Shown here: piece after piece, positions 1 through 9,098 of the stretch
Numbering within the stretch: the stretch's first letter is position 1
Layout: each line of letters opens with the position of its first letter
Source of the DNA: Bacteroidales bacterium
Lineage (GTDB): Bacteria > Bacteroidota > Bacteroidia > Bacteroidales > UBA7960
Direction: 5' to 3'
Assembly: GCA_003557965.1 (NCBI GenBank)
Contig: PWND01000115.1
Location: 1 to 40,545, forward strand
DNA: 40,545 nt
Made by a program: the position numbers and the translations under genes
The notes under the pieces: generated by a model
What the model saw: the letters and a program-made list of their open reading frames with translations, nothing else
What the model was told of the DNA's origin: nothing
Database searches by the model: none

Positions 1-555
1 CAGGCCATTGACGACAGGGCTGTTATTCCTGTTTCTGTAAACCTACAATCTATACTTCGCCTTAATGTTGTATCCGGCGGTAGTATTGAGTTTAACTTTA
101 ACACCCTTGATGATTACGAAAATGGGATTAACTCTGGTGGTACAAACGCAGGATATCAAACCAAGTTTAATGTTGCTTCATCTGTTGACTGGAACGTCTT
201 TATGTATGCTGAAGATGCTACATTACAAGGAACTGATGAAATAGGCGGTGCAAATACTATGACTATAGACAACATTGGTTATCACCTGGATTATGATGGT
301 GATGGTCTTGAGGATGATTATGATGGCAACTTTGATGAAGGCAACCCAACAGCATTAACAGCTGATGAAAACGAATTGTTAGTGGGTTATGATGAAGACC
401 CTATTGCAGGCGACATTAACAGAAATGCTTTTGTTATAAACTGGAGGTGTGGAACACGTGAAGGGAACATGCTGGATGAAACAATTCTGGAGCAAGGCCT
501 GGCAGCAGATCGCTATGCAACTAATGTGTTTTTATTGCTTCAACCTGCTGAGTAA
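1..555 (+). CDS. Partial (5' truncated by window) secreted beta-strand-rich protein, possibly pilin/DUF4402-like
   Basis: Frame 1 is open from base 1 (QAIDDRAVIPVSVNLQSILRLNVVSGGSIEFNFNTLDDYENGI...) to TAA at 553-555. Ends in an alternating hydrophobic strand (YATNVFLLLQPAE). The pilin-like call is inference. Confidence 0.7.
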   Translation, partial: QAIDDRAVIPVSVNLQSILRLNVVSGGSIEFNFNTLDDYENGINSGGTNAGYQTKFNVASSVDWNVFMYAEDATLQGTDEIGGANTMTIDNIGYHLDYDGDGLEDDYDGNFDEGNPTALTADENELLVGYDEDPIAGDINRNAFVINWRCGTREGNMLDETILEQGLAADRYATNVFLLLQPAE

Positions 556-594
556 GAACAACACGAAAATTCAATAATTTGGAAAAGGCTTTAC

Positions 595-628
595 TTCCCG
601 GATGTTACCATCCGGGAATATTTTATTT
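595..628 (+). terminator. Rho-independent-like hairpin
   Basis: Perfect 10-bp stem TTCCCGGATG (595-604) / CATCCGGGAA (609-618), 4-nt loop TTAC, followed by TATTTTATTT. Confidence 0.75.
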
Positions 629-661
629 ATCTTCTTTATTCGTTTAAAAGAACGCAATTAG

Positions 662-1228
662 ATGCCTCAAATTAAAAAGAAGTTAATAATACCAATATGC
701 TTATTGTTTTGCATATTAACAGAAGTGCATGCCCAAAGAACAAGAGCCCCTTTCACTCAAAATATTAACAGAGACAGTAATAAAGAAGAGGAAAGTGTTA
801 ATATCAGGTTAGAAAGTGGAGGAAATGTTCCTTTTCATATTAATTCTTTTAGAAAATATGTTGAAGGTGATGAGTTACATGCCTGGACAAGGTTTGCTTT
901 GTTGATTGAGAATCTTGACCCTGCAGATACCTGGAGATTAGAAGTTTTGGCAAGTGACAGTGAGTTAGCAGGAGACTATGGAAGAGAGCTTGATTTACAT
1001 TATATTTCAATTTCAGCAAACCATTTTAACGTTGACTCAGAAGATTTGGATTACTTTCCAGTAAATGAATTGTCAGACATCCCGCAAACTTTAGTGACGG
1101 GTTCAGGAGATGGGTTATTTGTGATAACAATAAACTATAGTATAGGAAAGGATCCTGGCAACAGGCTACTTGGTGAATATCCGGATTATTATTTTGTAAA
1201 TTTATATTTTGACCTTAAACAAGACTAA
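662..1228 (+). CDS. Small secreted hypothetical protein, possible second subunit of the surface-fibre cluster
   Basis: 188-aa ORF with signal peptide (KKKLIIPICLLFCILTEVHAQ). C-terminus is a predicted beta strand (YYFVNLYFDLKQD). Confidence 0.75.
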   Translation: MPQIKKKLIIPICLLFCILTEVHAQRTRAPFTQNINRDSNKEEESVNIRLESGGNVPFHINSFRKYVEGDELHAWTRFALLIENLDPADTWRLEVLASDSELAGDYGRELDLHYISISANHFNVDSEDLDYFPVNELSDIPQTLVTGSGDGLFVITINYSIGKDPGNRLLGEYPDYYFVNLYFDLKQD

Positions 1229-1249
1229 ACGAAACTCAGTTTATTGCAC

Positions 1250-4200
1250 ATGAAGCAATTACATACATATAGCATACTGCTGATTTTTTTGCTTACATGT
1301 TTAACAGAATCATATTCTCAATTCAATAATAACAACTTTAATCGCTCTAATTCTTATATTACTGCGGAATTCAAAAATGAAAACATAATAATAAAGCCTG
1401 AAACAACTTTTTTTAATGTGTTGTTTATTGAAAATAAGGGCGAACAAAGAGAAGAAGTTTTTATTGATATAAATGTTCCTGTTGGATGGTCTGTAATTGC
1501 ATTAGAAGACAGGTCATACCATATTAACCCCGGAGATACTCTTTTGCTGCCTATCAGGGCAGCTCCTGCAAGAGGTGTTGAAGGTAACATAGGCTATTCT
1601 TTGATTGCCGCTGTTAATAATCGCGATGGTGATACATACACTAATGCTTATTGTTTTGTTCAAATTGAAAGGCAATCCGACTTGCAGTTCAGGGCAATCA
1701 CCAGGATGGGCTACTTTGACCAGCAAACAGGAGAAAGCGAGCTTTCATTCAGGTTAATTAACCGTGGCAATATTAGTGAATTGGTTTATTTAAGTTTTCA
1801 ATCAACTGAAAACGTTGCCATTGTAAATGAAAGAGACAACATCTACAGCATGGATGTAATGCTAAGTGCTCGCAGCGATACTACAATTACACTACCTGTT
1901 AAAGTTGTTGAAGACCATAATTTACACAACGGGAGCTTATTCAGGATTGACCTGAAAGGCCATACAATTGACAGGGAATTCGGCACATCTTTTTGGTTTA
2001 ATCATACAGTAAGCCAGTATAAATATAATATCCCTGAATCTGAAAAAATTCTTATAGCTGAAATAGCTGCACAAAATTTATTTAGTGATCAAAATACAAT
2101 ATTTTCAGGGGGAGTAAGAGGGGTCTTATTGCTTCCGGAAAGCCGTGATTTCAAGTATCGATTTTACAGGCATGGTGGTGCCCCCTCAAGTGATTTTCTC
2201 AGATACAGCAGGGCAAGAGTCTCTTACAACTCTCCTTTTATGGGCATTACGGTTGGTGACATCTCCGCATACAACCTGAAGTATGGTGGAGGTAAAGGAA
2301 CAGAAATTGTTTACAGAATGCCCGGTGCATTCCAGGTGTCGGCAATGGCAAACCGCAACACCTTCAGGCCAATTACAAACTATGGGATTAGTATTAACGA
2401 ACGTTTATCTTCTGTAAGGTTGGGTACAGAGCTTGCTTATACAGAAAACGAAATATTGAATAATTATGCTTATCTCGGCACCCTTAGAGGATCTGCAAGG
2501 CTCGGCAGAAACCATTATATAAAAACAACTGCTGGAATTAGCAGTGTTCATTATATGCATAATGAAAGTACTAATTTAGGTTATGGTTTGTTGTTTGATT
2601 ACAGTGGTAGAATTGGAAATGCAAGAATTAGAATCAGAGAGCATTTGGGAACGCCGGAATATTATGGCAGATACTCCGGAAGGCATAACCTCACAACAAC
2701 AGTTTTATATCCTTTTGAAAGTGGCTTGCAGCTATATTTTAGTGGATTTGACCAAAGATACAGGCCTTTGGTTGAAACTCATGAAGGCATTACATCTGAC
2801 AGGTTCCTGGATAACAGATCGGCAAATTTAATACTTAGAAAATTTCTTGACCAGGGATTTCTCATATATGGCGGCCCTGTTTACCAGGGAAAATCTACTA
2901 ACAGTTTCTTCCTGTTTGATGGTGAAAACCCTTTTACCACACATTCTGCCAAATTCACACTTGGCACAAGGCTAAATGAAGGAGGCCTGAGCTTTAACCC
3001 TGCTGTAACTATGGGATATACTTTTATTACTGACCACTCAATCCCCGAACCCGGAACTCTCAGGCATGATATTAGAAACAGTGATGGAAAATTCTTCAAT
3101 AGCCTTTTTACTTTGAATTTAAGAAGTTCGTGGTGGGGAGCATTTATTAACTATTATTACGGGCCATATACTGTTAACCAGGAAATCTCTCAATTCTACT
3201 ACGACATTTCTGCTCACTCTGTTAGGCTTATGCCGTATCTTGAGAGATTTATTTATAAAGATATTGTTTTCCTTTCTTCTAAGCTGAGTTTTACTTATGA
3301 TTTTGCTTTCAAAACAAGCAGAATTAACCTTATGAACCAACTTGATGTTTATTTTGAACACGACTTCAAATTTTCTTTATTGAATACCTATGGTTATCAA
3401 CTCACTACTGATTTAGTTACCGACCAGAAATACACATACTCTCACCTCTATTTTGAAGCAAGGCTTACAAAAGAATTCAACTTCAACCAACCTCGCATTA
3501 GATATTACGACCTGAAAATCAGTCTTTTTAAAGATTTAAATGGAAATCTTATCAGGGACCCTAACGAGCCCGGTGTCAGAGATATTCTTGTAAGTATAAA
3601 AAGTATTGATCCTCATAAATATAAAGATTATGATGTTGATTATCCTCCTCCTGATAAATTAGTTTCCATGAGCTTATTATCAGGCATGGACGGAACTGTT
3701 ACATACGAAAACTTGCCAATGGGCATTTACAAAATAGAGCTGACAAATGTTGGAAGAGACCAGGATAAGTACTTCCCTGATGAAAGTTCTTTTATTGTGC
3801 ATGTTACCCGGGATAAAACAGTTTACGTTCCATACCTTGAAAGAAACAAAATCTTTGGAAGGGTAATTATGAATCGTAGCAGGTTATCAACCCTGGGCAG
3901 GATCGAGCTTGGAAACATAAAAGTGACTGCTGTTGATAGCAAAGGTAGAGAAACCGCCACTCTTACTGATTCAAGGGGGCATTTTGAAATGTATGTACCA
4001 AGTATTGATTATTACGTTGTTTCGATAAGAGATATTTTTAGTGATCACTTTAACCTTAGACAAAACCATTTTAGGGCAAATCTAAACGGTTTTAAACAAT
4101 TTGAAGTTAACTTTGTATTCGATGAAATCCGAAGGCATGTTGAATTTACTCCTACTCCTTCAGATATTGAGGCTGAAATCAGAAGAGTAGGACGAACTAA

Positions 4201-4804
4201 CCTGTCGGGGATAGTTAGAGATGCCTCAACCTTAAGGCCATTAAGAGCTCAAATTGAAGTAGTTGACAATAAAACCGGCAACAGCATTACTCAAACAATT
4301 TCCGACAGGGCAAATGGAAGATATAGTGCCAGCTTTGTAACAGGAGAAGATTACATGCTCATTGCCAATGTAAGTGGATACTGGATGCACTCCGAAAGGT
4401 TAAGCCTTGACCAGTTTCTGACTATTCAAGATATTGAAGTTGATATTTTGATGGAAAGCATTGCTGTAGGATCAAGGTTCCAGCTAAATAACCTGCACTT
4501 TGCTCCCGAAAGCGCTGAAATACCAACGGAGGCATTCCCGGAGCTTGACAGGCTGATTAAGCAGCTTAAAGACAATCCTAATGTGAGAATCAGAATAGAA
4601 GGACACTCTGATGCAGTTGAAACTCTGGAAGACAGAACATTGTCTCTTAGCAGGGCTGACGCTGTGATGAGGTATATGGTACAAAACGGTTTCGGAAATA
4701 TTGAGTACACAGGACGGGAAGATTCTCAGCCAGTGGCTCCAAATGATACAGAAGAAAACAGAAGAAGAAACAGGAGAGTTGAAATTATTATTGTTGACAG
4801 GTAA
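1250..4804 (+). CDS. Large outer-membrane protein: N-terminal Ig-like region, usher-like beta-barrel, SdrB/CarboxypepD-like modules, C-terminal OmpA domain
   Basis: ORF called from TTG at 1244; first ATG at 1250 precedes a signal peptide. Barrel region contains VGDISAYNLKYGGGKGTEIVYRMPG. Contains SLFKDLNGNLIRDPNEPGVRDILV (SdrB-like) and a C-terminal OmpA motif (LHFAPESAEI...IRIEGHSDAVETLEDRTLSLSRADAVMRYM...NRRRNRRVEIIIV). Confidence 0.85.
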   Translation: MKQLHTYSILLIFLLTCLTESYSQFNNNNFNRSNSYITAEFKNENIIIKPETTFFNVLFIENKGEQREEVFIDINVPVGWSVIALEDRSYHINPGDTLLLPIRAAPARGVEGNIGYSLIAAVNNRDGDTYTNAYCFVQIERQSDLQFRAITRMGYFDQQTGESELSFRLINRGNISELVYLSFQSTENVAIVNERDNIYSMDVMLSARSDTTITLPVKVVEDHNLHNGSLFRIDLKGHTIDREFGTSFWFNHTVSQYKYNIPESEKILIAEIAAQNLFSDQNTIFSGGVRGVLLLPESRDFKYRFYRHGGAPSSDFLRYSRARVSYNSPFMGITVGDISAYNLKYGGGKGTEIVYRMPGAFQVSAMANRNTFRPITNYGISINERLSSVRLGTELAYTENEILNNYAYLGTLRGSARLGRNHYIKTTAGISSVHYMHNESTNLGYGLLFDYSGRIGNARIRIREHLGTPEYYGRYSGRHNLTTTVLYPFESGLQLYFSGFDQRYRPLVETHEGITSDRFLDNRSANLILRKFLDQGFLIYGGPVYQGKSTNSFFLFDGENPFTTHSAKFTLGTRLNEGGLSFNPAVTMGYTFITDHSIPEPGTLRHDIRNSDGKFFNSLFTLNLRSSWWGAFINYYYGPYTVNQEISQFYYDISAHSVRLMPYLERFIYKDIVFLSSKLSFTYDFAFKTSRINLMNQLDVYFEHDFKFSLLNTYGYQLTTDLVTDQKYTYSHLYFEARLTKEFNFNQPRIRYYDLKISLFKDLNGNLIRDPNEPGVRDILVSIKSIDPHKYKDYDVDYPPPDKLVSMSLLSGMDGTVTYENLPMGIYKIELTNVGRDQDKYFPDESSFIVHVTRDKTVYVPYLERNKIFGRVIMNRSRLSTLGRIELGNIKVTAVDSKGRETATLTDSRGHFEMYVPSIDYYVVSIRDIFSDHFNLRQNHFRANLNGFKQFEVNFVFDEIRRHVEFTPTPSDIEAEIRRVGRTNLSGIVRDASTLRPLRAQIEVVDNKTGNSITQTISDRANGRYSASFVTGEDYMLIANVSGYWMHSERLSLDQFLTIQDIEVDILMESIAVGSRFQLNNLHFAPESAEIPTEAFPELDRLIKQLKDNPNVRIRIEGHSDAVETLEDRTLSLSRADAVMRYMVQNGFGNIEYTGREDSQPVAPNDTEENRRRNRRVEIIIVDR

Positions 4805-4821
4805 CTTAATATATACTAATT

Positions 4822-5199
4822 ATGAAATTACCGGCTTTTTTAATACTCGTATTGCTTTTCGTTATTTCTGCTTGCGATAAAGAAGAAGAAGAATTTTACT
4901 TTGAGCTTGATGATCTTTTAGAAACACATTGGGGAATACCACATGTTATTGAGCCGGGACAAGAAGATATTGATTTAGCAGCACCCACGATATTTTACCC
5001 TGATGGCTATGTTAATATTGGCCCTGACAGAACGGATTTCTGGAGGATTAAAGACTCCAGAAGTATCTTTTTGGATGAAGCCGGAGAAGATTGGTTTTTT
5101 ATAAACCTAAGTCCTGACACTATGTATGTTGAAAAAACAAAATATCCTCAAGGTATATTTTTAGGAAAATACATTTATCATCCGATGGAATATAACTAA
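4822..5199 (+). CDS. Putative lipoprotein
   Basis: 125 aa with lipobox-like N-terminus LVLLFVISACDKEEEE; 17 bp downstream of the OmpA-fused gene. Confidence 0.7.
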   Translation: MKLPAFLILVLLFVISACDKEEEEFYFELDDLLETHWGIPHVIEPGQEDIDLAAPTIFYPDGYVNIGPDRTDFWRIKDSRSIFLDEAGEDWFFINLSPDTMYVEKTKYPQGIFLGKYIYHPMEYN

Positions 5200-5299: not shown

Positions 5300-5372
<73 letters not shown>

Positions 5373-5376
5373 CAGC

Positions 5377-5414: not shown

Positions 5415-5499
5415 GCCCGGGTGGTGGAATTGGTAGACACGCAGGACTTAAAATCCTGTGGCCATTGCGGCCGTGCCGGTTCGATCCCGGCCCCGGGTA
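5415..5499 (+). tRNA. tRNA-Leu (anticodon UAA)
   Basis: 85-nt class II tRNA; acceptor GCCCGGG/CCCGGGT, anticodon stem-loop CAGGACTTAAAATCCTG, variable arm, T-arm GGTTCGATCCC. Confidence 0.95.
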
Positions 5500-5529
5500 C
5501 TTTTCTTTCAAGCATTACAAGCCACCAAT

Positions 5530-8193: not shown

Positions 8194-9098
8194 CTACTTG
8201 GGTATTTCAACAATATTAATTCTATCTAAGTCTTTATAGCCTAAACCTGCTTCATAACCTTTTTTAATCGTAAGAACATCTTCCGCGAAAAACCCAACCT
8301 GTATTGCACAATATTTATCAACAGCCACAGGGTCTGTGCCCGCTACAACTTTCATCGGGCTTACTATTTCTCCCGGTCCTCCCGGGCCATTTGTTGTTAT
8401 TACATGCGACACATCTGAAATAATTAAATCGGGTTTTCTTAGCAGGTTTAAATCTACAATGCTTTGTGCGAGAAAGTGAGGGTCGTTTCTTTCAGGGCCC
8501 TCCAAATGAAACTTCACATTTGAAGCGCGTGTATTTATGCCATCATGTTTTTCATAGCGTTTGTTAAAACAGTTAAGCTATGATGCTTTGCAATTGGAAT
8601 ATTAATAAAAACATCAACATTAAAAAACTCTTTCACTACTTCAAGCTCCCAGCTTATTGCTTTAGCTCCTTTTACATCTTTTACTACTTGAAAGTTCTCA
8701 TCATCAAATTCTGATGGGAAATGATTTGCCTCTATTGTCCTGGTTTTATTTATCACCTCTTTATATTCATCATAAAGCCCGCTTCTTTGCCAATATTCAG
8801 GAATTATATGCTGTAGAAAAACAACATCTGTGGCTCCGGCATCAAAAATCATTAATAATGCTGCTATTACAACATCCGGGTCAACATAGGCCCCTTTTTC
8901 CCTGAAACCTGAATTAACAAGTATGCCAACAGTATTTCCCGGTTGCACAAACCTTTCCATGCCTCCAAGAGTTTCAACTGCAATTTTTGTGTTTTCAAAA
9001 ACACTGTCACCTTTTACAGCAACAATATCAGGCGCTCGCCCTTTTGTCGCAATGCTTGAAATCAATGCAAGCAAAATAACTACAAATAACTTATTCAA
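8194..9098 (-). pseudogene. DUF362 domain-containing protein, split by an apparent single-base frameshift
   Basis: ORF 8535-9098 (ends ...AMKNMMA*) and ORF 8194-8517 are in adjacent frames. Inserting one C in the + strand near 8539-8541 (an extra G in the coding strand) gives AMKNMMGINTRASNVKFHLEGPERND... The span of 905 nt becomes 906, i.e. 302 codons. Confidence 0.8.

Follow-up and report, generated by a model that had tools for sequence, protein, structure and literature searches.

The FimA/Mfa1 (type V) fimbriae of the Bacteroidales are surface fibres whose subunits are lipoproteins. Chaperone-usher systems, of which type 1 pili (FimC-FimD-FimA) are the classical example, are listed for the Proteobacteria, Cyanobacteria and Deinococcus-Thermus, the range also given for their archaic (sigma) branch (Csu, CupE), which is the most widely distributed and is related to biofilms (PMC4654587). 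A chaperone-usher system described in Bacteroidota was not found in the open-licence literature. Two further systems share components with the locus considered here: the WxL/WxLIP clusters of Gram-positive bacteria, in which a two-Ig interacting protein is predicted to complete the beta sandwich of its partner (PMC10599100), and the SiaA/SiaC pathway of Pseudomonas aeruginosa, which controls aggregation and biofilm formation (PMC7647112).

The stretch of DNA analysed, referred to as the window, is a whole contig of 40,545 bases (G000:C5) from a fragmented Bacteroidales genome. It probably holds the downstream half of a putative, divergent chaperone-usher-like pilus pathway of the Bacteroidota, the parts, homologies and gene order of which were computed. 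The four consecutive co-oriented genes of a preliminary description of this DNA are present as the open reading frames q1 to q4, and the set is limited downstream by two tRNA genes (5300-5373 and 5415-5500). At its other end, the window starts at a contig end that falls within q1, meaning that q1 is truncated and the upstream genes are absent from the window; comparison with relatives places the start of q1 at the mature N-terminus. Beyond the tRNA genes, two adjacent short open reading frames on the minus strand (8194-8517 and 8535-9098) resemble pieces of one gene, possibly broken. The features of the gene set are:

1-555, plus strand: q1, major pilin-like subunit, mature part (184 aa, open at the contig start, signal peptide cut off)
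13-54, plus strand: q1 residues 5-18 (DRAVIPVSVNLQSI), putative donor strand or N-terminal extension, conserved in q1 and unpaired in the AF2 model
662-1228, plus strand: q2, pilin-like homologue of q1 that does not have its donor-strand extension and is a candidate for the tip or initiating subunit (188 aa, signal peptide)
1250-4804, plus strand: q3, usher-like outer-membrane protein (1184 aa)
1352-2005, plus strand: q3 residues 35-252, pair of Ig-like domains with homology to the free chaperone (hhalign)
2051-3478, plus strand: q3 residues 268-743, predicted transmembrane beta-barrel of about 24-26 strands (AF2 secondary structure; Foldseek FimD matches)
3503-4453, plus strand: q3 residues 752-1068, SdrD_B-like and CarboxypepD_reg-like beta-sandwich domains (Pfam, AF2)
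4499-4774, plus strand: q3 residues 1084-1175, OmpA peptidoglycan-binding domain (PF00691, 2.8e-14)
4822-5199, plus strand: q4, small accessory lipoprotein with a lipobox (125 aa)

This gene set is not a product of chance, because relatives of q3, sought without its OmpA part, occur in 32 of the 198 genomes in the order, the present one among them, and because q1, q2 and q3 are adjacent in all 24 of the related loci that have at least 5.5 kb of upstream sequence. A scan of genome contigs with q3 as a single protein found nothing, and a 24-row alignment of q3 was too divergent for searching; an eight-row alignment (A2) worked, its profile retrieving 40 loci from a public genome collection. These come mostly from Bacteroidales metagenome-assembled genomes, with a single named isolate, Perlabentimonas gracilis M08_MB, in which the order runs SpoIIE-q1-q2-q3. 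The survey of gene order envisaged in the preliminary description thus found the arrangement of q1, q2 and q3 conserved. Usually, genes for a MORN-repeat protein and a two-Ig protein of about 270 aa, most often divergently oriented, are followed by a TPR/SpoIIE phosphatase gene, q1, q2 and q3, with q4 closing the locus in near relatives. Across the same 24 loci, the phosphatase is present in 23, the two-Ig chaperone and the MORN-repeat protein in 21 each, and a SiaC-like gene in 14.

Relatives outside the order (L134-L140) combine a chaperone, pilins ending like GTYTQTVTYTATAL, larger proteins of 339-478 aa and a q3 that has no OmpA domain. The C-terminal part of these larger proteins is the pilin domain of the q1/q2 family (iE down to 7e-22), and their predicted layout is that of a two-domain tip adhesin. 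In another relative (L097, 7923-11482), q3 is split into two open reading frames of 348 and 834 aa. Matches in Methanosaeta and a Deltaproteobacterium (L103 and L104) were weak, were confined to the final strands of the barrel and the beginning of the SdrB-like domain, and were left aside.

The missing upstream genes were sought within the same genome and found together on another contig (G000:C230, locus L061), which carries genes for two-Ig, MORN, TPR/SpoIIE and SiaC-family proteins, as well as a paralogue of q1. Those with roles in the model set out below are:

C230 612-2603: TPR/SpoIIE membrane phosphatase
C230 2847-3647: PapD-like two-Ig chaperone
C230 4844-5272: SiaC-family protein (1.6e-33)

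The q1 paralogue has its signal peptide, shares 79% DNA identity with q1 over 323 bases, and runs off the contig end. Since the genome has one copy of q3, the other matches there being to the OmpA end, C230 very probably lies directly next to the window, with a tandem duplication of q1 at the junction. The chaperone gene on C230 contains one in-frame TAA, after which the frame resumes directly, so that either the gene is broken or the assembly is in error here.

Like the classical systems, the q locus encodes a free-standing two-Ig chaperone that is homologous, by profile, to the FimC type. A broad alignment of this protein, comprising members from the Bacteroidales and from the relatives outside the order, matched FimC, SfmC, ElfD and YraI of E. 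coli K-12 over both domains (hhalign 91%, E 1.1e-6; reversed control 0.2%); the narrower alignment, taken alone, reached 4% against the E. coli chaperones, which is below significance. Single members gave sub-threshold or near-cut-off matches in Pfam to MSP, ASH, WxLIP_PGBD and PapD_N, all of which share the PapD-like Ig fold.

The small proteins had been proposed for comparison with pilin folds, and both profile and Foldseek evidence support a pilin-like nature. The two proteins, which end in YATNVFLLLQPAE (q1) and YYFVNLYFDLKQD (q2), are homologous to one another (hhalign 99.4%, E 2.4e-21), and resemble classical pilins in a C-terminal beta strand and, for q1, in an N-terminal extension that q2 sequences mostly lack. 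The distance from the mature N-terminus to a conserved GG is 24-25 residues in 32 of 32 q1 sequences, and 8-14 residues precede the GG motif in 33 of 35 q2 sequences; the q2 of the window is among the two exceptions, with a leader that is longer (28 residues) but polar. The second half of the q1 extension alternates between polar and hydrophobic residues, and residues 1-18 are without a strand and unpaired in the AF2 model of q1 (mean pLDDT 87). In Foldseek, the best match of this model is TLP-1a/b (6e-6), a TasA-like fibre protein. Behind it, with weak E-values, come the chaperone-usher pilins and other known donor-strand subunits SafA, the PapG pilin domain, CfaB, EcpA and FimG. Judged from sequence and model, the anatomy of q1 and q2 is that of donor-strand pilins, with a putative incomplete Ig fold and a putative donor strand.

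Pfam searches of q1, q2 and q4 matched no family, those of the q1/q2 family found no match to the FimA/Mfa families, and a direct profile comparison of the pilins with E. coli families found nothing. Although FimA/Mfa1 fimbriae are likewise surface fibres of Bacteroidota, q1 and q2 differ from their subunits in having ordinary signal peptides ending in Q, with no lipobox found in sequences of either protein. A search of q1 to q4 for type IX secretion sorting domains gave no match, and the PorE model of that secretion system scored 63.7 bits against a cut-off of 600, covering the CarboxypepD/OmpA part only. The q2 profile (alignment A5) has a weak match (E 0.0076) to 3rwx, the solved structure of a hypothetical outer membrane protein from a bacterium.

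The proposal that q3 is an usher-type platform stands in part. The Ig-like stretch and the 'VGDISAYNLKYGGGKGTEIVYR' stretch on which it drew are both present in the protein, and its predicted large outer-membrane barrel with beta-sandwich domains after it may resemble the layout of classical ushers. In the AF2 model of q3 (mean pLDDT 83, pTM 0.55), a pair of Ig domains at the N-terminus precedes a barrel spanning residues 268-743 with about 24-26 strands, after which come three beta-sandwich domains and the OmpA domain. Among outer-membrane barrels, Foldseek ranked FimD first (3.6e-11), followed by LptD (1.3e-7) and BtuB (5.6e-7). As the TM-scores by query to FimD lie only at 0.16-0.23, with an rmsd of 14-29 A, and ciliary proteins with Ig arrays have better E-values, this match is supportive rather than decisive.

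However, q3 departs from classical ushers in several respects. It has no match to the usher family PF00577, which is over cut-off in 0 of the 198 genomes of the order, including those bearing q3. No plug, in the form of a domain-sized insertion between barrel strands, was detected in the AF2 model or the alignment, and the usher N-terminal domain is absent, with the two chaperone-homologous Ig domains in its place. Hence q3 is not filed in the usher family. Failure against PF00577 equally separates q3 from the archaic systems, to which the q locus can be likened, by description, in that it too combines a chaperone and pilins with a platform in the outer membrane. Direct comparison of q3 with the E. 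coli usher profile was nil (0.5-1.5%), the beta-sandwich domains that follow the barrel, two to three in number, scored 0.7% by profile against E. coli ushers, and a PDB profile search with q3 minus its OmpA domain returned nothing meaningful. The Pfam families over cut-off in q3 are OmpA, which confirms the predicted PF00691 domain, and CarboxypepD_reg (1.9e-8), with SdrD_B (0.005) below it. That the putative platform q3 works like an usher is nevertheless the best-supported reading.

The N-terminal chaperone-like module and the OmpA domain of q3 are further differences from the classical usher, and both had been anticipated. The N-terminal Ig pair matched the chaperone alignment (hhalign 95%, E 3.6e-8; reversed control 0.8%), and an HMM of this region, run against 683 open reading frames, found only two non-q3 matches, both of them chaperones (E 4e-4 and 1e-3). 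This homology means a chaperone-like module is fused in cis, as suggested, but beside the separate chaperone rather than instead of it, the latter being encoded in 21 of 24 relatives and on C230. Anchoring through OmpA is similarly a feature of this q3 but a clade-specific addition, as many relatives are without the domain. In a phylogeny of q3 from which the C-terminal module was excluded, a single branch (support 100/99) separates the proteins that bear OmpA from the others, requiring one change in 100% of bootstrap trees. Therefore the OmpA anchor was probably gained once, as a late and clade-specific event.

The fourth gene does encode a lipoprotein, to judge by the lipobox of q4, but this protein is accessory and not part of the core, being found downstream of q3 in 12 of 40 related loci, all from near relatives. 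In the near relatives L064, L066, L068, L095 and L100, q4 is followed by an open reading frame of about 1,730 aa and then one of about 250 aa; the window does not have this pair after q4, where the tRNA genes follow.

A second system in the same order provides a parallel. The usher-like protein USH2, representing a separate gene family, occurs in 29 of the 198 genomes, and in most of the ten loci examined (L141-L150) it lies beside a two-Ig chaperone and pilins of the PF14352 (DUF4402) type, one of which matched that family at 8e-26. No description of this system was found in the literature searched. USH2 resembles q3 in the SdrB/CarboxypepD domains that follow its barrel, whereas its pilins belong to PF14352, it retains a stretch that, by eye, resembles a plug, and USH2 and q3 are unrelated in their N-terminal parts. 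Against E. coli ushers, USH2 scored 81.7% (barrel alone 37%; controls 0.1-2.2%). Against q3 it scored 97.8%, mainly through the C-terminal sandwich domains (97.7%), and this score is therefore not taken to prove that the barrels are homologous; the q3 barrel alone reached 8.5% against USH2 (controls 0.2-0.9%), which is not significant. The chaperones of the two systems matched at 98.6%, and the q1/q2-family pilins matched those of the DUF4402 type at 74%. Hence the links between chaperones are the firmest, with those between pilins and between barrels being suggestive. In this second system, the usher-like protein at G032:C11:136-3234 (L062) has a weak PF00577 match and a SPOR domain at its C-terminus.

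From these components we infer an order of assembly involving donor-strand exchange, translocation through q3, and regulation. Sec would export q1 and q2 to the periplasm, where the separate PapD-like chaperone, encoded on the contig that probably abuts the window, would hold them by completing their unfinished Ig fold, and then deliver them to q3, the predicted large barrel across the outer membrane. The N-terminal two-Ig module of q3 may accept the growing base subunit or keep it in place, and the fibre would exit via q3 while q1 subunits exchange donor strands. As a subunit predicted to be without a donor strand, q2 would start the fibre as its tip, and the OmpA domain would tie the q3 platform to peptidoglycan. 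It is possible, if tentative, that subunits are relayed from the soluble chaperone to a chaperone tethered on the platform, replacing the N-domain and plug of ushers, and from there to export. The timing of fibre production would probably be set by the membrane TPR/SpoIIE phosphatase and its SiaC partner. Signalling genes of this kind, and a MORN protein, distinguish the q locus from classical chaperone-usher systems, and by analogy with SiaABCD of P. aeruginosa, where a SpoIIE/PP2C phosphatase is likewise found beside a SiaC-family protein, the pair suggests that fibre production is regulated. Unlike its P. aeruginosa counterpart, the q-locus phosphatase has a TPR region N-terminal to the membrane helix and adjoins a pilus-like locus.

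The departures of q3 from ushers could alternatively mean that it is a static anchor, holding a donor-strand fibre to the outer membrane and peptidoglycan, with secretion by something else and no usher pathway involved. The absence of a plug, usher N-domain and PF00577 match speaks for this, the OmpA domain and Ig modules fit such an anchor, the structural match to FimD is weak in TM-score, and the protein most similar to q1 is TasA-like, a kind of fibre that is not known to use an usher. We nevertheless consider this unlikely, as the large barrel is conserved among q3 relatives, even those that have no OmpA domain, an usher-like protein can be recognised at the corresponding position in the parallel DUF4402 systems, and no other conserved outer-membrane exporter was found in the locus.

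The chaperone raises a different alternative, since the WxL/WxLIP clusters also encode a two-Ig protein: a diderm counterpart of these would form a fixed complex of the two-Ig and small proteins on peptidoglycan, with no polymerisation. WxLIP_PGBD does rank among the chaperone's best Pfam families (to 6e-7), and a profile comparison with the PDB gave the chaperone a weak match to EfmWxLIP1 (E 0.13). Yet WxL/WxLIP clusters have neither an outer membrane nor a barrel, the WxL domain in Pfam was unmatched by q1, its 31 relatives and q2, and the N-terminal extension is retained in every q1. With the aligned chaperones having no C-terminal transmembrane helix, and matching E. coli pilus chaperones by profile in both domains, such a complex appears highly improbable. 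It is harder still to credit that q3 is an ordinary OmpA-family porin beside unrelated small secreted proteins. While its only Pfam families over cut-off are OmpA and CarboxypepD_reg, synteny and homology both disfavour this explanation: the six-gene order is near-invariant, q1 is homologous to q2, the N-domain of q3 is homologous to the chaperone, and OmpA is missing in many relatives.

If the q locus is indeed a chaperone-usher-like pilus pathway, it would represent a whole clade of such systems in the Bacteroidota, with pilins unknown to Pfam. Its assembly platform would dispense with both the plug and the N-domain of ushers, and bear a chaperone-like module, making the evolution of usher parts, and the need for a plug and a chaperone-recruiting domain, open to test. 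Were subunits passed between soluble and tethered chaperones, this relay would have no known precedent in classical, archaic or alternative systems. Fibre assembly in these bacteria would, moreover, be tied to a switch of the SiaA/SiaC type.
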